A stretch of DNA of 42,684 bases, taken from the NCBI GenBank assembly GCA_003599885.1, contig QZKW01000016.1, positions 1 to 42,684 of the forward strand. Direction: 5' to 3'. The DNA comes from Desulfobacteraceae bacterium. GTDB taxonomy: Bacteria; Desulfobacterota; Desulfobacteria; Desulfobacterales; Desulfosalsimonadaceae. This document shows positions 7,203 to 32,063 of this stretch, piece by piece. The position numbers and the translations under genes were made by a program. The notes under the pieces are model-generated. The model was given only the letters and a program-made list of their open reading frames with translations, was not told the DNA's origin and made no database searches. Numbering within the stretch: the first letter of the stretch is position 1; each line of letters opens with the position of its first letter.

Positions 7203-8471
7203 ATGAATCCTGCGGAATGGGACTGGCAAACCGGGAAAAAGACCGTTGCGGATGCCGGAAAGTGGCGCAATATATTTGCACATGTTGACGCGCTTTATGT
7301 CAGTCCGGATGGAGAAACGCTGGCGGCTGTTGTCCAGACCGAGGATCTGTTGTTTTCCGTATGCGAAAATGGCCGGATCTGGGAATCCCGGTTTGATAAA
7401 ATCAGTTGTCTGCGATTCAGCCCCGATAACCGGGCCGTTGCCCTGGTTTCGAAAGAAGGCCTGTGGACGGTTGCTGCCTCCGGAAACCTTTGGGCGAATA
7501 CCTATGAGTTTGTCTGGAACCTCCACTTTAGCGCAGCCGGAAAATCTGTTATTGTGGCAGCCGTCTATCAGGGACGATATCTTGCCGTATCCGACGGTGT
7601 GCCCTGGTCCGACGGTTTTTTTTCGCTCAGTCATCTGACTGTCAGCCCGGATGGCCGGAGTGTCGCGGCGGTGGTGCAGACGGTTCCGCTGGCTGCCGGG
7701 GACTTGGCAGCGTTTCAGAAAGGGTGTTATACGGCGGCAGTAAATGGCCGGCCGTGGGACATGAATTTCCTTAATGTCTGGGAAATGCGGTTCAGCCCGG
7801 ACGGCAGGCGTCTGGCCGCCCAGGTGCGCAGCACCTTATATGACTATACCATTGCCGTGGACGGGCAGCCCTGGGCTGTCCATTTTGCATCGGTCTGGCG
7901 GCCCCGGTTTCATCCAGCAGATGGCTCCGTCACGGCCCCGGTTCGCGTCGCAGGCCTATGGACCCTGGCCCGGGATGGTGAAATTTTTTGGGACAAACGG
8001 TTTGTCCAGTTATGGCACCATCAATACACCCCTGACGGCCGTCATATTGCCGCGATTGTCGCCCCGAAATTCGGGGTCTGGACGGTGGCAGTGGACGGGC
8101 GGCCATGGGCGTTAACATTCAATGAGCTGGTAACGGATCTGGCCATCAGCCCGGACGGGAACCGTGTCGCCTGCGTGGGCAAGACAGATGGACGCTGGCA
8201 TGTGGCGGTGGATGGTAAGCCATGGGATGGCGATTATGATATGGTCTGGCCCCCGGTATTCAGTCCGGACAGCCGTCATGTGGCGGCAAAGGTGGAAAAA
8301 AATGGACGATTCACGATTGTTGTGGATGGTCGACCATTAAAATTTGAGTTCCAAAAAGCGTGGGAACCGGTATTTTCCCCGGACAGCGACAAAATTCTGG
8401 TTAAAGGCATGGATGACGTAAACGGCATATACACCCGCCGCGTGGTGGCTTTGCCGGAACTTTCGGTTTAA
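7203..8471 (+). CDS. tmcD: TmcD, tryptophan-rich WD40-like propeller protein of the Tmc complex
   Basis: 422 residues; ATG at 7203 with GGGAG upstream. Seen: repeated blades of the form FSPDG/SPDG followed by a strand and then V(D/N)G(R/Q/K)PW (AVNGRPW, AVDGQPW, AVDGRPW, AVDGKPW), with many tryptophans and no signal peptide or membrane helix. Known: in Desulfovibrio the Tmc complex consists of cytochrome TmcA, HdrD-like TmcB, membrane protein TmcC and tryptophan-rich TmcD, and moves electrons from periplasmic hydrogen oxidation across the membrane. The other three subunits follow directly downstream, which makes the assignment strong. TmcD is inferred to be a cytoplasmic scaffold. Confidence 0.88.
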   Translation: MNPAEWDWQTGKKTVADAGKWRNIFAHVDALYVSPDGETLAAVVQTEDLLFSVCENGRIWESRFDKISCLRFSPDNRAVALVSKEGLWTVAASGNLWANTYEFVWNLHFSAAGKSVIVAAVYQGRYLAVSDGVPWSDGFFSLSHLTVSPDGRSVAAVVQTVPLAAGDLAAFQKGCYTAAVNGRPWDMNFLNVWEMRFSPDGRRLAAQVRSTLYDYTIAVDGQPWAVHFASVWRPRFHPADGSVTAPVRVAGLWTLARDGEIFWDKRFVQLWHHQYTPDGRHIAAIVAPKFGVWTVAVDGRPWALTFNELVTDLAISPDGNRVACVGKTDGRWHVAVDGKPWDGDYDMVWPPVFSPDSRHVAAKVEKNGRFTIVVDGRPLKFEFQKAWEPVFSPDSDKILVKGMDDVNGIYTRRVVALPELSV

Positions 8472-8480
8472 GGGAGTCTG

Positions 8481-9143
8481 ATGATTCACGACATCTACAG
8501 TCTTCTCCGGGGCCCCATGGTATGGCTTGCGTTTTGTATTTTTGCCGGGGGCATGGTGTTTCGCATCACCGCCATGGTCGGGCTTGCCCGGCAAAAAGAC
8601 CGGGTGGTGTTTGATTATATGAACACCCGGTATGCCCTTCGTTCGATCCTTCACTGGATGGTTCCTTTTGCCGGGGTGAACATGCGCAAACATCCGGTGA
8701 TGACCCTGGTTGCGTTTGTGTTTCACCTGTCGGTGCTGGCAACGCCGCTTTTTTTATGCGCCCATATTCTGCTGGTCAAAGCCTCCTGGAACCTCTCCTG
8801 GTGGTTTTTGCCGGACGGCGTGGCGGATGTCATGACCGCTTGCGTGGTGGCCGCTTGCGGGTTTTTCCTGTGCCGCCGGATGCTCCTCCCGGATGTCCGG
8901 TATCTGACAACGGCTTCTGATTTGTTCCTTCTGGCGCTGGTGGCCTCACCTTTTATCTCCGGTTTCTGGGCCTGTCATCAGTGGCCGGGTTATCCCGTTG
9001 TCATGATGGCGCACATGCTTTCCGGCGAAATTCTGCTGGCGGCGATTCCCTTTACCCGCTTAATCCACATGTTTTTCTTCCCGTTCACCCGCGGTTATAT
9101 GGGATCTGAATTCGGCGGGGTGCGGCATGCAAAAGACTGGTAA
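8481..9143 (+). CDS. tmcC: TmcC, b-type cytochrome-like membrane subunit
   Basis: 220 residues starting 9 bases after tmcD, with GGGAG upstream. Seen: five or so hydrophobic helices (about residues 11-32, 70-95, 108-130, 148-165, 178-200), several histidines in or beside helices (HPVMTLVAFVFHLSVL, MMAHMLSGE) as expected for haem b ligands, and the IPFTRLIHMFFFPFTR ending shared with NarI/DsrM-type subunits. It resembles HmcE at 31386-32063 in the same window in length and in the LLAAIPFTRL region. Known: TmcC anchors TmcB in the membrane and passes electrons between TmcA and TmcB. Confidence 0.9.
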   Translation: MIHDIYSLLRGPMVWLAFCIFAGGMVFRITAMVGLARQKDRVVFDYMNTRYALRSILHWMVPFAGVNMRKHPVMTLVAFVFHLSVLATPLFLCAHILLVKASWNLSWWFLPDGVADVMTACVVAACGFFLCRRMLLPDVRYLTTASDLFLLALVASPFISGFWACHQWPGYPVVMMAHMLSGEILLAAIPFTRLIHMFFFPFTRGYMGSEFGGVRHAKDW

Positions 9144-9187
9144 AGTCAATTTTACCGGGTGTTATAACGAATAAGGATCTGACGGTA

Positions 9188-10519
9188 ATGACGAAACCGC
9201 CTGCGAAAGCCCGTCCTCACTTTGCGGATGAGGGAATCGAAAAAGGGGTTCAGAAACTGACCGGGGAATCCATCACTCCGGTGATCCGGGATATTCTAAA
9301 AACCGAGGGCGGGGCGCGCCTCAAGGTCTATATGGAAACCTGCGCCCATTGCGGGCTTTGCAGCGAGGCTTGCCATCATTATCTGTCCAATGACCGTGAT
9401 CCAAAATATTCCCCTGCGGGAAAAGTCAGGCAGACCATCGGGGAAATCCTCCGGAAAAAGGGGGCCGTTTCTCCAGGGTTTATCAAAACCGCCTGTGAAA
9501 TCGCGTTTACCGAATGCAACCTGTGCCGGCGATGCGTCATGTATTGTCCGTTTGGCATTGATGTGGCTTACCTGATGCTGTTCGTGCGACGGATTTGCCA
9601 CCGCCTCGGCGTCGTGCCCCAGTACATCCAGGACACGGCCCACAGCCATGCGGCCACCCTGAACCAGATGTGGGTCAAGGAAGATGAATGGATCGATACC
9701 CTTCACTGGCAGGAGGACGAAGCCCGTGAGGAGATTCCGGGTTTACGCATTCCTCTTGAAAAAGAGGGGGCGGAGATTTTTTATTCCGTGATCGGGCCGG
9801 AGCCGAAATTCCGCGCCCAGCTGATCTATCAGGCGGCGGTGATCATGCATGTTGCGGGAATGAACTGGACCATGCCCGCAACGCCCGGCTGGGACAACAG
9901 CGACATGTGCATGTACACCGGTGATTTTGAAATGACCGCCCGACTGAAAAAAGCCCATTTTGAAACCGCCATGCGGCTTAAAACCAAGCGCATCGTGATG
10001 GGGGAATGCGGCCACGCATTCCGTTCCGTCCATGATGTGGGCAACCGGTTCCTGGGATGGAAAACAGAACCGCTGCCGGTGGTTCACGCCATTCAGTTTT
10101 ATTATGAATTGTTCAGGGATAAAAAGCTGACGGTTAAGCAAAAATTCGATCAGCCGGTCACGCTCCATGATCCGTGCAATGTGGTGCGCGGCGCGGGCCT
10201 TCATGAACTGGCCCGGTATATCATTCATGAAACCTGCGACCGGTTTATTGAAATGCATCCCAACCGCGAGCACAATTATTGCTGCAATGCCGGTGGCGGC
10301 GTCATCAACTGCGGCCCGCCCTTCACCAAAAAGCGGGTGACCAGCAACAGCGTCAAGGCCGAGCAACTGAAGGCCGTGAAGGCCAAAGGCGCGAACATTA
10401 TTATCGCGCCCTGCCATAACTGCCATGGCGGGCTTGAAGATATCATCAAACATTATGATCTGGGCATGGAGATCAAGTTCCTGGGGGATATTATCTATGA
10501 ATGCATCAAAAAAACTTAA
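9188..10519 (+). CDS. tmcB: TmcB, HdrD-like iron-sulfur protein
   Basis: 443 residues. Seen: two 4Fe-4S motifs near the N-terminus ([11 protein letters not shown] and [12 protein letters not shown]) and the CCG region with [30 protein letters not shown] and APCHNCH. The usual CCG triplet of this family reads CCN here, followed by AGGG. Known: TmcB is the cytoplasmic catalytic-type subunit, homologous to HdrD and DsrK; the CCG region binds a special 4Fe-4S cluster. HmcF (28069-29457) and the selenoprotein at 23155-24474 belong to the same family. The physiological acceptor is not known; a DsrC-type disulfide is a plausible inference. Confidence 0.92.
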
Positions 10520-21281: not shown

Positions 21282-22121
21282 TTATTCGCAACGTTTCAAT
21301 ATGTTATCCGCTATTTCCGCAAAAGCCTTTGTTATAGGGGAATCCGTATACCTGTCTTGAAAGGAAACCCCGGTATCGCTGCACTTGACCATTTCCGGAT
21401 CAAAGGGGATTCTTCCAAGAAAGCCAATGTCTGTTGCTGTGGCAGTGCCCTCGCCACCGCCGGTACCAAAGAGGTCGAGCGCCCTTCCACAGTGGGGGCA
21501 TGCATACCCACTCATATTTTCAATCAGCCCGAATATTTCCATCCTGACTGTTCTGCAGAAGTTGATTGATTTTCGGACATCGGCAAGCGCGACCTCCTGG
21601 GGCGTGGTGACGATAATAGCACGTGCGTCTTTAATCAATTGGGCCACCGTCAAGGGTTCATCGCCGGTTCCCGGCGGAGCGTCGATAATCATATAATCTA
21701 AATCGCCCCAATCCACTTCCCCGATAAATTGACTGATTGCGGAATGCTTGACCGGTCCGCGCCAGATGATGGCGTCATCCTTATTTGGCATAAGAGACTC
21801 AATCGATATCGCCGAAAGATTCTCTGAAAAACGCATGGGCAGGATCTTTCGAGTATCACTGGAAGTAACCATGCCTTTTAGCCCGAGCATTCTCGGAATA
21901 TCCGGCCCATGTACATCCACATCCATCAACCCGACTTTGAAACCTCTGTTTGCAAGGGCAATGGCGATGTTGACCGAAACGCTTGTTTTTCCGACACCCC
22001 CTTTACCGCTCATCACGATGAATTTGTTTTTGATTTTTTTAAGAGACTGCCTTGCCATCTCATCCGGACCAGGTTCAGGAGGCTTTTCGGAAATGCCGAT
22101 CCCTTTCTGTACATTCTTCAT
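21282..22121 (-). CDS. Mrp/NBP35-family Fe-S carrier ATPase
   Basis: 279 residues. Seen: Walker A MSGKGGVGKTSVSVN (about residues 37-51), DVDVHGPDIPRMLG, IDAPPGTGDEPLT (switch II), and CPHCGRALDLFGTGGGE with the CxxC that holds a bridging 4Fe-4S cluster between monomers. Known: ApbC/Mrp/NBP35 proteins carry Fe-S clusters to target proteins in an ATP-dependent way. It is central to the redox operon and matches the theme of cluster handling in the MinD/NifX operon. The start overlaps the end of a small open frame at 22118-22240. Confidence 0.95.
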   Translation of the reverse strand: MKNVQKGIGISEKPPEPGPDEMARQSLKKIKNKFIVMSGKGGVGKTSVSVNIAIALANRGFKVGLMDVDVHGPDIPRMLGLKGMVTSSDTRKILPMRFSENLSAISIESLMPNKDDAIIWRGPVKHSAISQFIGEVDWGDLDYMIIDAPPGTGDEPLTVAQLIKDARAIIVTTPQEVALADVRKSINFCRTVRMEIFGLIENMSGYACPHCGRALDLFGTGGGEGTATATDIGFLGRIPFDPEMVKCSDTGVSFQDRYTDSPITKAFAEIADNILKRCE

Positions 22122-22240
22122 TCTGTGGCCTTTTCTTTCATTTTGTCTGATTGCCCTGCTTCAGGTGCATCCGGCAGGTTGTCCGGATATTTCAACTTCT
22201 TTTTACCAGTGACTGCCAATATTCGGGCTGTCTGAATATC

Positions 22241-22582
22241 CTATTTAACAGGTTTTTCCAACTGTGCGATGCGCTGACTAATGGCGTCCAGTGAATTCCG
22301 GAGAGAATCCGCCTGCGCTTTCAATTGATCCAGTTCAACGGCTGAACCGTCCGTATATGGTCCGGTAACCGTCGGCGGATACCCGGAAAATCCTCTGCCG
22401 AACCCACATCTTATACCCCGTCCCCTGCCGCCTCTATTCCCACGTCCAAGTCCTCTGCCACTTCCAAAGCCTGCGCCTCCCAATGAGGACCGGTTTGCAG
22501 TTGCTGCAGGGTTGCAAAATCCTCTCATGCCGCCTGTCATGGGGCCGCCACTCATAGGACCGCTTCTGTCATATCCTGGCAT
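22241..22582 (-). CDS. DUF5320-type glycine/methionine-rich protein with coiled coil
   Basis: 113 residues from the ATG at 22582 (MPGYDRSGPMSGGPMTGGM), the usual start of this family. Seen: the N-terminal MPG-D-GPM-GGPMTGG signature, a Gly/Arg-rich middle (GFGSGRGLGRGNRGGRGRG), and a C-terminal coiled coil (LDQLKAQADSLRNSLDAISQ). Known: such proteins often sit beside NifX and Mrp genes in anaerobes; the function is unknown. The stop is TAG, and the frame stays open for 40 more codons up to the mrp start. Confidence 0.8.
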   Translation of the reverse strand: MPGYDRSGPMSGGPMTGGMRGFCNPAATANRSSLGGAGFGSGRGLGRGNRGGRGRGIRCGFGRGFSGYPPTVTGPYTDGSAVELDQLKAQADSLRNSLDAISQRIAQLEKPVK

Positions 22583-22610
22583 TTTATTTTCCTCCATCTA
22601 TCTTAAAATA

Positions 22611-22793
22611 TTATTTTTTACGTCGATTCCCTTGTCCTGAGCCTTGCCCGGACCCACTTCCGCGTCCCTGGCCGCGCCCTGAACCTCTACCTTGTCCAGC
22701 GCCTTGTCCGGTACCTCCAGCCGGACACCCCCCTCTGCCTTTTCCGGCACCCGGTCCCTGACCGGACGGACCGGTTCGATCTTTTCCAGGCAT
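22611..22793 (-). CDS. Short Gly/Gln/Arg-rich protein, MPGKDRTGP type
   Basis: 60 residues from the ATG at 22793. Seen: MPGKDRTGPSGQGPGAGKGR, one cysteine, and a low-complexity GxGQGRGSG tail ending in basic residues. The N-terminus resembles the neighbouring DUF5320-type protein, so the two may be relatives. GGAGG stands upstream of the start. It is the first gene of the long redox operon behind promoter P2. A role in holding metal or RNA is a guess from composition only. Confidence 0.7.
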   Translation of the reverse strand: MPGKDRTGPSGQGPGAGKGRGGCPAGGTGQGAGQGRGSGRGQGRGSGSGQGSGQGNRRKK

Positions 22794-22863
22794 CTTTTTC
22801 ACCTCCTTTCGCTGACGGGATCTGCTGCTCCGTATTTGGAATATTATTCTGCTATTAAGTTAT

Positions 22864-22936
22864 GAGTATATGCCCATTTTATCTAAAAAGTAATGGCATG
22901 GCAGCGAATTGTCAATTTTTTTTTAAGAATATGCTC
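22864..22936 (-). promoter_or_regulatory. Promoter P2 with twin GAGCATAT operators (redox operon)
   Basis: On the minus strand: upstream box GAGCATATTCTT (22936-22925), identical to P1, A-tract, -35 TTGACA (22915-22910), 17-base spacer, -10 TACTTT (22892-22887), then downstream box GGGCATATACTC (22875-22864). Spacings match P1 within 1-2 bases. The first gene starts at 22793. Confidence 0.75.
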
Positions 22937-23001
22937 GGAACTTTGATTCGGAATGGAGTAGTTGGTTTGTGATAATTTCAAATTTTGATCCGGTTTATTT
23001 T

Positions 23002-23073
23002 GAGCAAATGCTTTAAAAAATCTTGACATCCATGCGCCTATTTATTAATTTTTCAGCTTACGGGTATATGCCC
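23002..23073 (+). promoter_or_regulatory. Promoter P3 with twin operators (Sec HdrD-like gene)
   Basis: On the plus strand: upstream box GAGCAAATGCTT (23002-23013), A-tract, -35 TTGACA (23023-23028), 17-base spacer, -10 TAATTT (23046-23051), then palindromic downstream box GGGTATATGCCC (23062-23073), flanked by ACG and CGT-like bases that extend the symmetry. It diverges from P2. Confidence 0.75.
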
Positions 23074-23154
23074 GTAAACTATGAGCCAATTCATTGAATG
23101 TTTGAAATATCCTCAAGAAAATAATAATTTCCACAGAATGGAGGGTTGAATGGT

Positions 23155-24474
23155 ATGACGGAAAAATTAATCAAGCTCGGAGGAAAAAAGCCAAGCGCCT
23201 TTATCGAAAAGGTGAAAGAGCTTCTTCCGGAAGGTGGAAACCTGAATCTGTGCCTGACCTGCGGGGCCTGCTCGTCCGGATGCCCGGCCACAGGGCTGGA
23301 GAATATGGACCCCCGCAAATTCCTGAGAATGGCGGCGCTGGGCATGGATGAGGAAATCACAAGCACCCCCTGGGTATGGATGTGTACCATGTGCCAGCGG
23401 TGTATTTATGTCTGCCCGATGAAAATCGATATTCCGCAGCTCGTTTACAATGCGCGGAACACCTGGCCCAGAGACAAGCGGCCCAAGGGAATCTTGGGAT
23501 CCTGCGACATGGCCCTTAAAAATGAGAGCGGCAGCGCCATGGGGACGTCGCCTGAGGATTTTGCCTTTGTGGTTGAAGATATCCTGGCGGAATACCAGGA
23601 AGCCCAGCCGGAGTTCAAGGACATGGAAGCTCCCATTGACAAGATGGGCGCAGAGTTCTTTTTGAACCAGAATTCCAGGGAACCGGTAACGGAACCCGAT
23701 GAGATGCTGCCCCTCTGGAAAATCCTCCACCTGGTCGGTGCGAACTGGACTTATGGTTCCAAAGGGTGGGGCGGCGAGAATTACTGCCTGTTTCTGGCGG
23801 AAGATAAAAGCTGGAGGCATCTGGTCCAACAGACAACGGACAAGGCCCACGAACTGGGATGTAAAACCTATCTTAATACCGAGTGAGGGCACGTGACTTT
23901 CTCAGTCCGGGCCGGACTGAAAAAATTTAAAATTGAACATCAATTTGAAGTTAAAAATATTTATGAATACTATGCCAAATGGATCCGCGAAGGTAAACTG
24001 AAAGTCAATTCAGACTGGAACCGGGATTTGAAAATCAAGTTCACGGTTCAGGACCCCTGCCAGATTGTGAGAAAAAGTTTTGGCGACCCTATTGCGGATG
24101 ATTTGCGGTTTGTGGTAAAATCCGTCGTGGGCGAGGAGAATTTTATCGACATGACGCCCAACAAGTCTAACAATTATTGTTGCGGCGGCGGCGGCGGATT
24201 TCTCCAGTCCGGGTTCAAGGAGCAGCGCCTGGAATATGGCCGGTTGAAAGACGAACAAATCAAGGCCACCGGCGCGGATTACTGCATCGCGGGTTGCCAT
24301 AATTGCCATGCGCAAATCCATGAACTCAGCGAACATTACGGCGGCCATTATCCGGTGGTGCACTTGTGGACGTTGATCTGTCTGTCTCTGGGCATTCTCG
24401 GACCCAATGAACGGGAATATCTGGGCGATGATTTAAAGGAAGTGAACGTGTTTCATCCGGAGTCAGCCATGTAA
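23155..24474 (+). CDS. Selenocysteine-containing HdrD/TmcB-like CCG iron-sulfur protein
   Basis: 439 residues from the ATG at 23155 (GGAGGG 9 bases upstream), reading through a TGA at 23884-23886. Seen: 4Fe-4S motifs with C33, C36, C39, C43 and C77, C80, C83, C87; Sec at residue 244 in NTE-U-GHVTFSV; then C302, CC342-343 in NYCCGGGGG, and C381/C384 in GCHNCH. In TmcB and HmcF of this window the Sec site is Cys (MGECGHA, GTECGHA). Length (439) matches TmcB (443), so the two halves are one protein. Known: HdrD/DsrK/GlpC relatives transfer electrons to disulfides or quinones; Sec members of the broad family are known. There is no membrane partner beside it, so its partner is unknown. Confidence 0.9.
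23884..23919 (+). promoter_or_regulatory. Putative bacterial SECIS of the HdrD-like selenoprotein
   Basis: After the TGA, 16 bases separate it from a strong hairpin: CAGTCCG pairs with CGGACTG around the loop GGC (23903-23919). Distance and size fit a SelB-binding element. By eye only. Confidence 0.6.
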
Positions 24475-24493
24475 TTTCAATTCGCATTCAGGC

Positions 24494-24531
24494 GGCATCA
24501 GGGTCGGCTGCGTTGTCGGCTCCCTGATGCC
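24494..24531 (+). terminator. Terminator-like hairpin after the HdrD-like selenoprotein gene
   Basis: GGCATCAGGG pairs with CCCTGATGCC (10 of 10), about 20 bases after the stop. Flanking ATTCA and TTGAAT extend the stem. No long T-run follows, but position and strength fit an end of transcription. It makes the Sec gene a single-gene unit behind P3. Confidence 0.65.
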
Positions 24532-24566
24532 ATCTTGAATGTAAAATGGAAGAATAACCGATGTGT

Positions 24567-24644
24567 CGGCCTGTCGCGGAACTTAAAATAAATAATGTCC
24601 TTTGCCTCCTAATTCAAAGTTCCACATTATTCCGCGGCAGGCTG
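24567..24644. other. Long imperfect inverted repeat before a gene of unknown function
   Basis: CGGCCTGTCGCGGAA (24567-24581) faces TTCCGCGGCAGGCTG (24630-24644), with inner pairs GGAAC/GTTCC and AATAATGT/ACATTATT. It ends 39 bases before the start at 24683 and could be a folded leader, a second terminator or a small mobile repeat. Confidence 0.5.
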
Positions 24645-24682
24645 ATCAACTTATAATTGATTGAATGGTTTTGGAGGATGCC

Positions 24683-25054
24683 ATGAATGACGGGATCAAT
24701 CCAACGCTTGAAGAGCTTGAGCGGAGACGCGTCAGGTCGTTGATGGTTTCGGAAAAGTCGGTTGCGGAACATCCGGATGTTTACCGTGAAATCAAGAAAA
24801 TAGTCCGGGATGTTATTTCTTCACCCGTTGACATCGGCGATTATTATAAAACCGCCCGAAAACTCTCGGAACTGCTCAGAGAAATGGCCAAAACCGATGC
24901 CATTTCTCTTTTTTATTATTTTGCGAAAAGCATCGATCCCCTTCAATGCGGCCGGGCCATGTATTTTCGGGCCGATTGCCTGGATTTGTGGGAACAGTTA
25001 AGGTGTATCGATGAATTAAGAGTCAGCTTGCATCACATCCGGTTAATCCAGTAG
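24683..25054 (+). CDS. Protein of unknown function, alpha-helical
   Basis: 123 residues from the ATG at 24683, with GGAGG 6 bases upstream; an ATG at 24665 in frame is less likely because the ribosome-binding site lies after it. Not recognised. Seen: mostly charged helices (PTLEELERRRVRSLMVSEKS, EIKKIVRDVI, ARKLSELLREMAKTDAISLF), two cysteines (QCGRAMYF, DCLDLW), and no membrane segment. It stands alone between the selenoprotein and the kinase, preceded by an inverted repeat. The stop is TAG. Confidence 0.6.
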   Translation: MNDGINPTLEELERRRVRSLMVSEKSVAEHPDVYREIKKIVRDVISSPVDIGDYYKTARKLSELLREMAKTDAISLFYYFAKSIDPLQCGRAMYFRADCLDLWEQLRCIDELRVSLHHIRLIQ

Positions 25055-28068: not shown

Positions 28069-29457
28069 TTACTCCTCTGGTTTCAGATGGTCGGGGATTT
28101 CGACCATATCCAGGATCAGCGGCTTTAAGAAAGACCAGCGAATCCCGATTTTGTAAACTTCTTCAAGGTCACGAATGGCGTCCCAGCAGTTATGGCAGGG
28201 GGCCAGCACCAGCTTGGCGCCGGTCTGAAGGATCTGGTCGCGTTTGGTGATGAGCGCCTTGTTGCGCTGCTCCCGGTACAGGCCGATACCGTTGAATCCG
28301 CCGCCGCCGCCGCAGCAATAATTGTGTTCCCGGTTGGGCGCCATTTCGATAAAATAGCCCGGTTCCACAATGTGGCTGACGATTTCCCGGGTGAATTCCT
28401 TTAAACCGTGATTCCGGACATAGTTGCAGGAATCCTGGAGGGTCACCGGTTCTTTAATGCGTCTGGACGGGTCGATTTTCAGCTTGCCGGTGCGCAGGGC
28501 TTCGGCCAGCCATTCCACATAATGGATGGACTCCACCGGCGGAAGGCCGTCTTTTCTGCCGGTCCAGTAGGGCCCTTCCACCACCGTGGCGCGGTGGGCA
28601 TGTCCGCATTCGGTGCCTATCATGCGTTTGGGTTTTAACCGTTCCATGGCGTCATAGACCGATTCCACCTGTATTTTGCAGGCGGCCCAGTCGCCCGCGA
28701 ACATGGCCAGACTGGTCTGTTCCCATCCCTTGCTGGCGACGGTCCAGTTTTCACCGGCAAGGTGAAATAAAATGGCGGCCTGGGCCAGATCTTCCGGGTA
28801 ATGCTTCACTTCCCGGGCATTGACCGTATACAGGATGTCCGCGCCTTCTTTATCAACGGGTATGGCGAGCCCTGGATATTCTTCCTCGTTTTCTTCGGCC
28901 ATCCACTGGAACGTGTCCACGAATTCCTCATCCGTGACATCCATTTGCGCATGATAGACCCGGTGCATGCCGGCCCCGATTTTGAGCTCCCAGGGCACGA
29001 AACCCTGCTGATATAGGAGACCCCGCAGATAGCCGAACATCACGCCCACGTCGATGCCGTGGGGACAATAGAGCCCGCACCGGTTGCAGCAGGTGCATTT
29101 GGCCCAGGCGGTTTCCATGGCCATATGCATGAACGCATTGTCGACGTTGCCTTTGCGCCGGACGATTTCGCCCAGAGTGGACTGAATTTTAAATGCGGGA
29201 ACTTGTTTGGGGTCCTGGTCGTTGATGCGGTAAAGAAAACAACTGTCCGCGCACATGCCGCAATGGGCGCAGATGGAGAGCCAGGTGCGGATACGGGATT
29301 TACAGGTTTTTTGAATGGTGTCCCATAAAAGTCCGGGGTCCACATCCAGGGATTTCATTTCCTGGTAATATTGCCGGCCCCCGGTATCGGACAGCAGCGT
29401 TTTTAATGCCGCATCGGTCTGGATGGGCTGTTTATTGCACAAACTTCCTTCAGGCAT
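28069..29457 (-). CDS. hmcF: HmcF, HdrD-like iron-sulfur protein of the Hmc complex
   Basis: 462 residues; GGGAG lies 9 bases before the start. Seen: 4Fe-4S motifs [11 protein letters not shown] and [12 protein letters not shown], then [37 protein letters not shown] and [10 protein letters not shown]. Known: HmcF is the cytoplasmic subunit of the high-molecular-weight cytochrome complex that links periplasmic hydrogen or formate oxidation to the cytoplasm. In Desulfovibrio it follows hmcE directly. Here a 1.9-kb accessory insertion separates the two genes, yet the frame and all motifs are intact. Confidence 0.92.
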
Positions 29458-29564
29458 CTGTTATTTCTCCCGTACTGGAATTCGTTGACCCTGATGCAAT
29501 GTTTCGGCCACTTGGGCCGCTTATATTTCCTGTCTAAATAAAAAAATAAATAAATCCAACTGAA

Positions 29565-29873
29565 TCAGCATTGCTGGGCCGCATGCTCTGACCAAGGCTT
29601 GATGTTTTTTAGCAGGGGACCAATCGTACGCTCCGCAACTTCGGTATCATAAGCAGCTTGTGCACGCAGCCAATATCCATTGGATAAACCAAAAAATCGA
29701 CATAACCTCAAATCGGTATCAGCCGTGACTGATCGTTTACCTGCAACAATTTCACTGATACGTTGTGCTGGAACACCGATCTCTTTGGCCAAACGATATT
29801 GGCTGAGGCTCATGGGTTTAAGAAATTCTTCCAGCAGGATTTCACCTGGAGTTATGGGGTCAAACTTTTTCAT
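29565..29873 (-). CDS. higA: HigA-type antitoxin
   Basis: 102 residues. Seen: DPITPGEILLEEFLKPMSLS, a helix-turn-helix (QYRLAKEIGVPAQRISEIVA, then GKRSVTADTDLRLCRFFG) and a YWLRAQAAYD tail, all typical of HigA/VapI. Known: HigA binds the operon promoter and neutralises the HigB mRNA interferase. It lies 12 bases after higB. With the toxin it forms part of the insertion between hmcE and hmcF and may have been selected as a stabiliser there. Confidence 0.92.
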   Translation of the reverse strand: MKKFDPITPGEILLEEFLKPMSLSQYRLAKEIGVPAQRISEIVAGKRSVTADTDLRLCRFFGLSNGYWLRAQAAYDTEVAERTIGPLLKNIKPWSEHAAQQC

Positions 29874-29885
29874 GATAGATACTCC

Positions 29886-30164
29886 TTAATGATAATCAAC
29901 AATCTCAACATTTTCAGCGAATCCATCCGACCAGCGAAAGCAGACTCGCCACTGATCATTGATGCGAATACTGTATTGACCGGAACGATTGCCCCTGAGC
30001 GCCTCAAGGTGATTGCCGGGCGGGATTCTCAAATCCTCAAAACAATTTGCGATTTCGAGCTGCCTGAGTTTTCGTCTGGCAACCTTGGCAATATTTACAA
30101 ATCTCTTTACGTGCTGGCCTTTGGATAGTGATTCAGTGAATTCGCATTTAAATGATCTGATCAT
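29886..30164 (-). CDS. higB: HigB-type mRNA interferase toxin
   Basis: 92 residues from the ATG at 30164 (MIRSFKCEFTESL); a start at 30200 adds unsupported residues. Seen: VARRKLRQLEIANCFEDLRI, PPGNHLEALRGNRSGQYSIR and INDQWRVCFRW, the RelE-fold catalytic surface of HigB. Known: HigB cleaves mRNA on the ribosome and is neutralised by HigA from the next gene. Order toxin-antitoxin is the rule for hig operons. Confidence 0.93.
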   Translation of the reverse strand: MIRSFKCEFTESLSKGQHVKRFVNIAKVARRKLRQLEIANCFEDLRIPPGNHLEALRGNRSGQYSIRINDQWRVCFRWSDGFAENVEIVDYH

Positions 30165-30238
30165 GTTTAATATAGTAACGCATCTCGTGAATAACGTCAA
30201 GCGTGATCATTTTTGTCTGACAGTGTCGATCCAACGCG

Positions 30239-30266
30239 AACATCTGCGGCTTGTCCGCAGAATGTT
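30239..30266. other. Hairpin upstream of higB
   Basis: AACATCTGCGG faces CCGCAG-A-ATGTT around the loop CTTGT, 75 bases before the higB start. It could be an operator, a terminator of DNA to the right, or a leftover. Nothing else is recognised between 30165 and 30381. Confidence 0.4.
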
Positions 30267-30381
30267 ATTGTTGGAATTCAGTATCATGTCCCCCGAATTC
30301 CCATGGCCGAGTTGAAAACTGCCCGGATCCGGATGGGCTAAAATTGAAAGAATGTTCATTTATATATCCTTCGGGTGGTGG

Positions 30382-30440
30382 GTGGAACGGATAAGATCGT
30401 GGCTCGCTTCGCTCTCACGATCTATCCTTATTCGTTAGGT
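30382..30440 (-). other. attC-type recombination site of a second integron-like cassette
   Basis: Read on the minus strand it starts ACCTAACGAATAAG and ends CTTATCCGTTCCAC. GATCGTG pairs with CACGATC around a short loop, with one small asymmetric bulge. ACCTAAC is the exact complement of the GTTAGGT core at 31069-31063 at the other end of the cassette, as expected. The DUF4145 stop codon lies inside it. It is short (59 bases), as in some antibiotic-resistance cassettes. Confidence 0.65.
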
Positions 30441-31056
30441 TTTCTTGTGATTTTTTATATTTTCCAAGAGATGCTTTAAACTGCATCATTCTGTCTGGAG
30501 AGACATAAATATATTCGATTAACATTTTAAAAAAGTCATTTATTGCAAAAGCTTGCATTGGATGAACTTCTTGATTATTTGCATGGGCACCAATGTTTCC
30601 AATAAGCCTCACAACGTCTGACGCCTCTACTAAATTTGAAGGTATTTCACCTTTTTCTGCCAACTCTTTGATTTGCTCAGTCAAATATTTCTTTTTCGTA
30701 CCTCTGTCTTTACAGATTGCTTCAAGCCCTTTTCTTATTTGTACAGCAAAGGCATTTGGTGCAATATTTTTTATTCTTATGGCTTCTTCGTAAATTTTTG
30801 AAATATGCTCAGGTACAGAGTCGTCGAGTGATATTTCAGGGAAAGCTAAACTCGGCTCGTCGCCGTCAATTGAATTGTATAACAATATTTGCTTGCACGT
30901 TTCACACCTTGTAACGATATATATTCCGTCAAATGGATGTTCATGCCCATCGTAAAAGTTCCAACCAATATCTATATACTTTTGTTCATGCAGAATGCTT
31001 TGAGTTGCCCTATTACAGCAGTGTGGACAAAAGTTAATTATTGTTTTATCTGGCAT
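30415..31056 (-). CDS. DUF4145 protein carried by an integron-like cassette
   Basis: 213 residues. Seen: an N-terminal Cys-rich part (NFCPHCCN, later TRCETCKQILL) that could bind zinc, and a DUF4145 domain (RIKNIAPNAFAVQIRKGLEA, LIGNIGAHANNQEVHPMQAF, the H-A-N region being conserved). Known: DUF4145 proteins are often found with restriction or phage-defence systems; the activity is unknown. The start is 7 bases from the GTTAGGT core and the stop lies inside the attC-type site. The gene is AT-rich relative to hmc. The cassette placement is seen; a defence role is inferred only. Confidence 0.88.
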   Translation of the reverse strand: MPDKTIINFCPHCCNRATQSILHEQKYIDIGWNFYDGHEHPFDGIYIVTRCETCKQILLYNSIDGDEPSLAFPEISLDDSVPEHISKIYEEAIRIKNIAPNAFAVQIRKGLEAICKDRGTKKKYLTEQIKELAEKGEIPSNLVEASDVVRLIGNIGAHANNQEVHPMQAFAINDFFKMLIEYIYVSPDRMMQFKASLGKYKKSQENLTNKDRS

Positions 31057-31062
31057 TTAAAA

Positions 31063-31069
31063 ACCTAAC
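31063..31069 (-). other. Leading core site of the DUF4145 cassette
   Basis: GTTAGGT on the minus strand fits GTTRRRY and is complementary to the opening ACCTAAC of the attC-type site at 30440-30434. It marks the 5' edge of a cassette of about 680 bases. The remainder of the gap to hmcE (31070-31385) shows no gene, only an ATTCAG-type repeat at its end. Confidence 0.55.
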
Positions 31070-31332
31070 AAGTTATTCTGCAGTTTCTGGTGAACTCCTG
31101 AACCTTTGGACTGCCGGTACCGATTATTTTGTCGTGGGTCTTAACGCCGCGGATTGCCAGAGTCCCTTGACCAGGTTTAACTACCCTGAAATACAGTCAA
31201 ATATTTGATTGGCAGTTTGCAATCATGTTCGTTCCACTTTCAGTATATCCTGTTGAAATAATAATTATCCGGAAAGTTGAGGATTCCACATGATCATGAT
31301 AGAGACCCGCTTAATAGATTTGTAACTGCTCA

Positions 31333-31368
31333 AGTATTCTGACTCCTGACTACTGAATACTGAATACC
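31333..31368. repeat. ATTCAG-type dispersed repeat, 3' of hmcE
   Basis: The reverse complement reads GGTATTCAGTATTCAGTAGT and then CAGGAGTCAGAATAC, the same words as 1276-1316 and 6991-7030. It lies 17 bases after the hmcE stop, at one border of the insertion that separates hmcE and hmcF. Confidence 0.7.
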
Positions 31369-31385
31369 AGTATTACCTTTACCGT

Positions 31386-32063
31386 CTACCACGCCATTCC
31401 CTTACCCTTCATTCCCCCCCGCTTGATGCCGAAATCCATGCCAAGCTGGGCCCGGGACAGAAAAAACAGCAACACGTGAGACAGGCGGGTAAACGGAATG
31501 GCAATCAGGAGAATTTCTCCGGAAAGGATGTGGGCAATCATCCAGAATGGATAATCATTCAGGTCATAGCGGCAGATCAGTCCGGTGATCAGGGGGGCGG
31601 TGGACAGGAGCAGAATCATATAATCGGATGCGGTGGTCAGGATGCGGACTTCCGGCAACACCAGCCGCCGGACCGTCAGAAAGAAAGCGCTGAAAATCGC
31701 TCCCCAGGCCAGGATATCAGCAACGACCGGTGGGAGTATGGCGAGTGAAAAACCGAAGGTCTTCTGGAAAATCATGTTGTGGGCGGAAAGAAACAGCATA
31801 ATGCCGATGATACCGGCATGAAAGATAAAAAAAAGCAGGGTCATCCCCGGTTTGGCGCGCCAGCCGTGAGAAGCGAAAGGCAGTATCCAGAAAAAAACAG
31901 AGCGTGCCGCGCCTTTTATTCCGGCTTTGGGGTGGGCGGTATAAGCCACGCGATCCAGTTGCCAGTGCAATCCTTTGATATAGAGGAATCCTCGCACCAG
32001 CAGGCCGACGAGGCAAATTCCGAGGGAAAACCATAATCCGAAACCGGTCAGCAAGTCAACCAT
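31386..32063 (-). CDS. hmcE: HmcE, b-type cytochrome-like membrane subunit
   Basis: 225 residues. Seen: a first helix (FGLWFSLGICLVGLLVRGFL), several more hydrophobic helices with histidines (FFIFHAGIIGIMLFLSAH, MIAHILSGEILLIAIPFTRL), and a short basic tail. It is similar to TmcC (8481-9143) in the same window, as expected for NarI/DsrM-type subunits. Known: HmcE is one of the Hmc transmembrane subunits. It is separated from hmcD by 230 bases that contain a dispersed repeat, and from hmcF by the accessory insertion. Confidence 0.92.
   Translation of the reverse strand: MVDLLTGFGLWFSLGICLVGLLVRGFLYIKGLHWQLDRVAYTAHPKAGIKGAARSVFFWILPFASHGWRAKPGMTLLFFIFHAGIIGIMLFLSAHNMIFQKTFGFSLAILPPVVADILAWGAIFSAFFLTVRRLVLPEVRILTTASDYMILLLSTAPLITGLICRYDLNDYPFWMIAHILSGEILLIAIPFTRLSHVLLFFLSRAQLGMDFGIKRGGMKGKGMAW

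Follow-up and report, generated by a model that had tools for sequence, protein, structure and literature searches.

An in-frame UGA codon in an hdrD-type gene

The window, i.e. the whole stretch of 42,684 nucleotides analyzed here, contains an hdrD-type gene whose reading frame is interrupted by a TGA codon. This raises the question whether the codon is read as selenocysteine (Sec) and, if so, what a Sec residue would do in such a protein. A sequence-only reading of the locus had proposed a single protein of 439 residues with one TGA at residue 244, in the context NTE-U-GHV, and this proposal was borne out (Table 1). The two halves of the protein are also co-linear with its relatives, as had been claimed, with a Fer4 dicluster at residues 30-91 and a CCG domain at residues 297-388.

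Table 1. Features of the hdrD locus and related loci. Positions refer to the window unless a contig is named; G000 is the genome from which the window originates.
Feature	Position	Strand	Basis
hdrD-type coding sequence (HdrC-HdrB fusion), 439 aa, UGA read as Sec	23155..24474	+	In-frame read-through in 80/80 kept relatives
UGA codon (Sec244), motif E-U-G-H	23884..23886	+	TGA (12) or TGC (5) in 17 phylum-survey matches
N-terminal 2[4Fe-4S] ferredoxin domain, HdrC-like	23242..23427	+	Pfam Fer4_8, residues 30-91
C-terminal CCG domain with C302, C342, C343, C381, C384	24043..24318	+	Pfam CCG, residues 297-388; EtfD ligand alignment
Bacterial SECIS hairpin, 8 bp (23902-23909 / 23913-23920), loop GGC (23910-23912)	23902..23920	+	Compensating base changes; not conserved in Cys relatives
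Candidate partner protein (123 aa; predicted all-helical; C99 as its single invariant Cys)	24683..25054	+	Start codon chosen by alignment
TmcB paralogue, Cys in Sec column	9188..10519	+	814.8 bits, cut-off 735
HmcF paralogue, Cys in Sec column	28069..29457	-	927.7 bits, cut-off 750
SelB2 and adjacent tRNA-Sec-like gene	G000:C28:11517-13542 (L138, L014, L022); also L156, L157

A contig scan was performed on the relatives of hdrD (best 80 of 455 genome loci). The column of residue 244 held TGA in all 80 and the frame continued past this codon in each case, which disposes of the concern that close homologues might end there. The same TGA is carried by a 95%-identical gene in another assembly and by more distant relatives. 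In a survey of the phylum, 12 of 89 genomes, including the genome under study, had a match at E 1e-150 or better, and the 17 matches encoded TGA (12) or Cys as TGC (5) at the site. In a survey of the class, 242 of 291 genomes had a match at 1e-60 or better. One TGA was counted by hand in 149 of the 150 best matches listed, a list that favors Sec forms because its entries were ranked by their scores against such a query and limited to the first 150. The column is therefore occupied by Sec (UGA) or Cys in aligned homologues, as the sequence-only reading had anticipated. The latter residue is found in the two paralogues of the window, TmcB (MGECGHA) and HmcF (GTECGHA), both named by matches above the NCBIfam cut-offs.

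The genome (4.51 Mb, 90 contigs, 98.8% complete, 2.4% contaminated) encodes the machinery for Sec insertion, whose absence would have told against a Sec residue. SelA (608.8 bits), SelB (369 bits), SelD (364.8 bits), and tRNA-Sec (74.7 bits) each scored over the cut-off, and the SelD gene itself contains a TGA.

The promoter and terminator that had been attributed to hdrD were not recovered by our scan, which gave no plus-strand promoter-like site from 22600 to 23154 and no terminator-like site from 24475 to 24682. A TTGACA hexamer is present at 23023-23028 without a passing second hexamer. A perfect 10-bp inverted repeat (24494-24503/24522-24531) has an 18-nt loop, beyond the range of the scan, and is followed by no T run. 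The divergent upstream neighbors of hdrD encode a NUBPL-type Fe-S carrier ATPase and a DUF5320 protein (21282-22597, minus strand). A relative of the ATPase gene was present within 5 kb of hdrD at 6 of the 80 loci.

A SECIS hairpin accompanies the UGA codon

The hairpin reported downstream from the TGA was recovered, with 8 bp rather than the 7 bp originally counted and with its loop at a spacing of 23 nt from the UGA. Folding of the single sequence was unremarkable (z-scores of -1.49 and -1.82), and eight pairs were also reached at two other offsets of the 1301 in the gene. Pairing was then counted over the 82 distinct sequences among 114 Sec rows, two Cys rows being shown apart. In total, 632 of 656 pair cells were paired, as compared to 104 to 295 of 656 in slid controls. 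The innermost pair was G-C in 45 sequences and U-A in 31, a compensating change, and the loop began with G in all 82. Of the 24 unpaired cells, 12 were G-A at the outermost pair and 6 were G-G at one inner pair. In a divergent set (12 distinct sequences of 13), 92 of 96 cells were paired and exchanges between standard pairs were observed at five of the eight pairs. Six Cys-encoding relatives had 16 of 48 cells paired. Thus, the hairpin is more than a chance structure because it is conserved with compensating changes, and not because of its folding energy. Sequence comparison indicates that it accompanies the UGA codon and is not kept with Cys. Candidates resembling Sec codons or SECIS elements also occur in other frames of contig C28 of the same genome (C28:1-20000).

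The features expected of a bacterial selenoprotein gene were all found, namely an in-frame UGA facing Cys in homologues, a conserved downstream SECIS, and the SelA/SelB/SelD/tRNA-Sec set. On these sequence data, the hdrD gene of the window is a selenoprotein gene. In one relative (G362:C22), an internal TAA was first taken for another recoded site; this was rejected, because TGC occupies the site in that gene and the TAA lies outside the 200 residues before and the 190 residues after it.

The window protein belongs to a known selenoprotein family

The window protein can be placed by its motif NTEUGHV in the Fe-S oxidoreductase-like selenoprotein family (GlpC/HdrD, COG0247; PTHR43551) displaying the motif UGH, which has already been published (PMC1794560, PMC9312934, PMC13188914). 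The last of these sources, a 2026 review, counts the family among selenoproteins that were, almost without exception, discovered bioinformatically. As described, the GlpC/UGH family resembles the window protein in having Sec in U-G-H, in occurring in Deltaproteobacteria, and in the existence of Cys homologues. Its genes are reported in operons with hdrA and frhD/mvhD-like genes, whereas the window copy lies outside an hdrA operon and has a small gene instead. A Sec-containing Fe-S oxidoreductase is also among the proteins listed in a genome paper on Deltaproteobacteria (PMC8318568). A Sec-containing HdrD4 devoid of transmembrane parts was described in 2009 in Desulfobacterium autotrophicum HRM2 (PMC2702500). 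Like the window protein, it is an HdrC-HdrB fusion with Sec and without a transmembrane part, and comparison by description makes orthology of the two proteins likely. Thus, the claim of a CCG protein with Sec where TmcB and HmcF have Cys stands, but a soluble Sec variant is not new, since the family was already listed and a soluble Sec HdrD already described. The window selenoprotein is probably cytoplasmic.

TmcB, HmcF, and DsrK share with the window protein the ferredoxin and CCG domains and display the E-C-G-H motif (by family model only for DsrK), but Cys replaces Sec in TmcB and HmcF and the window protein scored far under the cut-offs of the three families. Assignment was rejected for TmcB (NF045724, 155.7 versus a cut-off of 735), HmcF (NF045711, 160.7 versus 750), DsrK (NF045796, 118.4 versus 400), and GlpC of the anaerobic glycerol-3-phosphate dehydrogenase (TIGR03379, 28.4 versus 279.9). 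The hdrD gene is flanked by tmcD, tmcC, and tmcB genes on one side (7203-10519) and by hmcF and hmcE genes on the other (28069-32063). No match to P0001 was found in plasmid records at E 1e-60, and none of the papers covered by our literature search contained both 'DsrK' and 'selenocysteine'.

Predicted cluster ligands and proposed role of Sec244

The fold of the window protein was modeled from 25 sequences, without clusters (pLDDT 85.3). The top match of the predicted fold in the PDB was EtfD of Mycobacterium smegmatis (9ojn; E 1.4e-9, TM-score by query 0.65), followed by HdrB chains. In sequence searches of the PDB at E 0.01, EtfD was listed with the 25-sequence profile and not with three close copies. 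The ligands of the EtfD clusters, as given in PMC13083937, were transferred to the window protein through a HMMER alignment. The noncubane-cluster ligands Cys637, Cys672, Cys673, Cys709, and Cys712 align with C302, C342, C343, C381, and C384, respectively, which are therefore the predicted [4Fe-4S] ligands, and the noncubane-cluster histidine His583 aligns with His246. By this alignment, the EtfD-type set of five Cys plus His is present in the window protein. The four Cys ligands of the linear [3Fe-4S] cluster are kept at one position of four, where Sec244 aligns with Cys581; the three others align with Gly165, Tyr200, and Val247. The earlier statement that all CCG cysteines are intact is thus correct for the C-terminal CCG motif but not for the ligands of the first EtfD domain. 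In agreement, Pfam detected only the C-terminal CCG in the window protein, and not the two complete CCG motifs of HdrD or HdrB proteins with two noncubane clusters. EtfD and the window protein are alike in their second ferredoxin-type motif, in the C-terminal CCG ligand set, and in the His ligand. According to the published description, EtfD is longer and has five transmembrane helices, and its linear-cluster ligand set is absent from the window protein.

Since the other linear-cluster ligands are lost, the window protein is predicted to retain one cluster of the CCG type, next to which Sec would be located. The two HdrC-like [4Fe-4S] clusters would receive the electrons and transfer them to a single noncubane [4Fe-4S] cluster, coordinated by the six aligned residues. 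With the other ligands of the second cluster gone, the selenol of Sec244 would be free to attack a disulfide or to take a thiol partner beside the cluster. We prefer the reading in which Sec244 would act as a nucleophile on a disulfide or on the Cys of a partner. The ligand map points to a possible reason for the presence of Sec, as this residue would stand alone beside the noncubane cluster, at a site that is occupied by a second cluster in EtfD and Hdr and by a Cys in TmcB and HmcF. Residues E243, G245, and H246 are invariant, together with the position of residue 244, among the six aligned paralogues of the genome, TmcB and HmcF included. For this reason, the geometry of the Sec-adjacent cluster may hold, with Cys, for the wider family.

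Copies and genomic neighborhoods of hdrD

Three additional copies were found in the genome. A Sec copy 75% identical to the window protein is encoded on contig C4, preceded by metV-like and metF-like genes and by two genes resembling hdrA/mvhD; the neighbors were assigned to MTHFR and its C-terminal family by Pfam, the HdrA and MvhD models matching below their cut-offs. This locus (L139:2359-8400, G000:C4) comprises metV-metF-like genes, an HdrA-type protein in two pieces of 411 and 545 residues, the second of which ends in an MvhD-like part, and the Sec hdrD gene. The copy on contig C28 has Cys (TGC) and is 70% identical; the small gene, an hdrA-like gene, and an mvhD-like gene come after it, the latter two below cut-offs. 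The third copy, on contig C25 (L004:1489-2691, minus strand; L140), is 37% identical and contains Sec in the motif YPEUGHA. It lies near hdrC-, hdrB-, hdrA-, and mvhD-like genes, the hdrB-like one having CCG domains and the others being named by eye. A tandem pair of Sec hdrD copies was observed in Desulfamplus (L109:7881-11098; L121).

A relative of the MetF or MetV of the genome under study was encoded on the same strand within 6.5 kb of hdrD for 28 of the 80 relatives, an HdrA relative only for 6, the small gene for 23, and neither type of neighbor for 23. MTHFR and small genes occurred together at none of the 80 loci. Among the scan matches, that of Desulfatitalea alkaliphila (L095) has the small gene, whereas that of Desulfobacter vibrioformis (L096) lacks it. 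When only the 40 relatives flanked by 6 kb or more on each side were counted, the corresponding numbers were 16 (MetF/MetV), 2 (HdrA only), 13 (small gene), and 9 (none). A tree was built from 84 rows, in which a supported group of seven, all with the small gene, included the window protein. Counting same-strand matches only, the labels changed 7 times on the tree for the small gene and 15 times for MTHFR, as compared to 21 and 24 times after shuffling. The neighbor types thus switch repeatedly on the tree, and partner and function may therefore differ among members.

Interactions within HdrCBA-MvhD-MetVF have been shown by pulldown in Sporomusa (PMC9430772). As described, the Moorella and Sporomusa complexes comprise MTHFR-, HdrA-, and MvhD-type genes, as are present beside part of the hdrD relatives. 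In these bacteria HdrC and HdrB are separate, whereas in the operons of the relatives a fused Sec HdrD would stand in their place. Because of the pulldown in Sporomusa, we consider that the fused Sec protein probably takes the place of HdrCB in metVF-type operons. Relatives in metVF-hdrA-mvhD-like operons would accordingly provide the HdrCB module of a methylene-tetrahydrofolate reductase complex. The window copy would represent a solitary hdrD type, which in the genus has as its constant neighbor the gene for a small helical protein with a single invariant Cys.

A small gene downstream of hdrD encodes a candidate partner

The sequence-only reading had noted no membrane partner beside hdrD. 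The gene is nevertheless not without a likely partner, as a conserved small gene follows it. The gap between the hdrD stop codon and the start of the small gene is 208 bp in the window, and the two genes may not be co-transcribed. The protein has about 120 residues across members. One Cys is common to the 25 aligned members (the window protein, the C28 copy at L138:1923-2294, and 23 of the loci L055-L134), and C99 is invariant in 24 aligned rows. Five helices were predicted (pLDDT 87.7). Foldseek gave no match in the PDB under E 0.001, and no Pfam or NCBIfam family scored over its cut-off.

Both copies of the small gene in the genome are located directly 3' of hdrD, as are all 11 copies in the genus, which are distributed in 8 of 11 genomes. 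Their hdrD partners are of the Sec (8, including one partial match) and Cys (3) types. The converse does not hold, since the small gene is present at 11 of the 23 hdrD matches in the genus. The occurrence of the small gene after solitary hdrD in the genus provides a concrete partner candidate, and our best guess is that the one-Cys protein could be a redox partner or adaptor of the window HdrD.

A second decoding pair and alternative readings

A second SelB (SelB2; 280.1 bits, 27% identical to SelB1) is encoded on contig C28, directly behind a tRNA-Sec-like gene of 92 nt with the anticodon TCA (tRNA(UCA), 58.3 bits). The discriminator base is U in this tRNA and G in the first tRNA-Sec. The same U73 tRNA is found beside SelB2 in two other genomes (G034 and G282). 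Of the 11 genomes of the genus, three encode a full-length SelB2, and it is these three that encode the Cys form of HdrD (TGC codon), on the SelB2 contig in two of them. The remaining eight show no second full-length SelB. A single tRNA-Sec match is more usual, being found in nine of 11 hand-picked genomes, some of which lack the Sec form. Among the titles and abstract beginnings listed in literature searches on subjects other than the small protein, none described the ligand map, the small gene, or the second decoding pair. The three, the decoding pair lying beside the Cys copy, are additions of the present work.

Taken as a whole, the locus is probably best explained by a selenoprotein of a known family with one noncubane cluster, a free Sec244, and the small protein as partner. 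The listing of two open reading frames (246 and 193 residues) under translation table 11 would fit a nonsense mutation, an assembly error, or two separate genes. The TGA is common to all 80 kept relatives, from many assemblies, and frame and hairpin are kept, on which grounds two separate genes, a pseudogene, and a sequencing error were rejected, the chance of any of them being negligible. HdrD might also serve one of the membrane complexes encoded in the window, Tmc or Hmc, as a cytoplasmic subunit resembling TmcB or HmcF, given its 28-30% identity to both proteins and the location of both clusters within about 16 kb. This is very improbable in view of its low scores against both family models, the presence of dedicated TmcB and HmcF, and the location of 57 of the 80 relatives beside MTHFR/HdrA-type genes or the small gene. 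Alternatively, Sec244 could bind an Fe-S cluster through its selenolate, in an electron relay like that of EtfD, instead of acting catalytically as a free selenol. Its alignment with the EtfD ligand Cys581 argues for this role, which would require no thiol substrate, but with Gly, Tyr, and Val at the other ligand positions formation of the linear cluster is not expected, and we hold such a relay to be possible, if doubtful.

The UGA could also be read at least in part as Cys, for instance when selenium is short, SelB2 and the U73 tRNA(UCA) inserting Cys at the SECIS-marked codon. The contiguity of SelB2 and the U73 tRNA gene in three genomes would fit this reading. U73 is an identity element for CysRS, and recoding of UGA as Cys by such a SelB/tRNA pair has reportedly been the subject of a published study. 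G73 has been described as essential for Sec function, which favors a role other than Sec insertion for the U73 tRNA, but the same source takes many non-G73 predictions as non-functional (PMC5330540). The canonical Sec machinery is also present, and both the absence of a second full-length SelB from most genomes of the genus and the single tRNA-Sec match in most hand-picked genomes speak against partial decoding as Cys, which we regard as unlikely. In a layered version, the UGA would be read as Sec by tRNA-Sec and SelB1 in selenium plenty and as Cys by the U73 tRNA and SelB2 otherwise, with the genomic Cys-HdrD as a third layer and the small protein as the disulfide partner of both HdrD forms; this scheme as a whole appears quite unlikely. 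If SelB2 and the U73 tRNA did act on the hdrD UGA, the site would provide a natural selenium-dependent choice between Sec and Cys. Decoding of the UGA as Sec, with Sec244 as a free nucleophile, is the reading that we retain.

Additional observations were made around the second decoding pair. A protein of the IscA/HesB-Se family (NF038090, 103.5 bits, L138:11170-11499) is encoded directly before the U73 tRNA and SelB2 genes, and a similar protein was identified by eye at L157:3538-3864. In G034, G085, G185, and G220, the first half of the SelB model, and no more, is covered by a total of six short SelB-like matches, whose open frames have 373-420 residues. The tRNA-Sec family had three matches in G309 and two in G345. 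A family match with a score of 50 bits at L159:2849-2942 (G309:C16) was identified by ARAGORN as a tRNA-Cys(GCA) of 94 nt with a final T.
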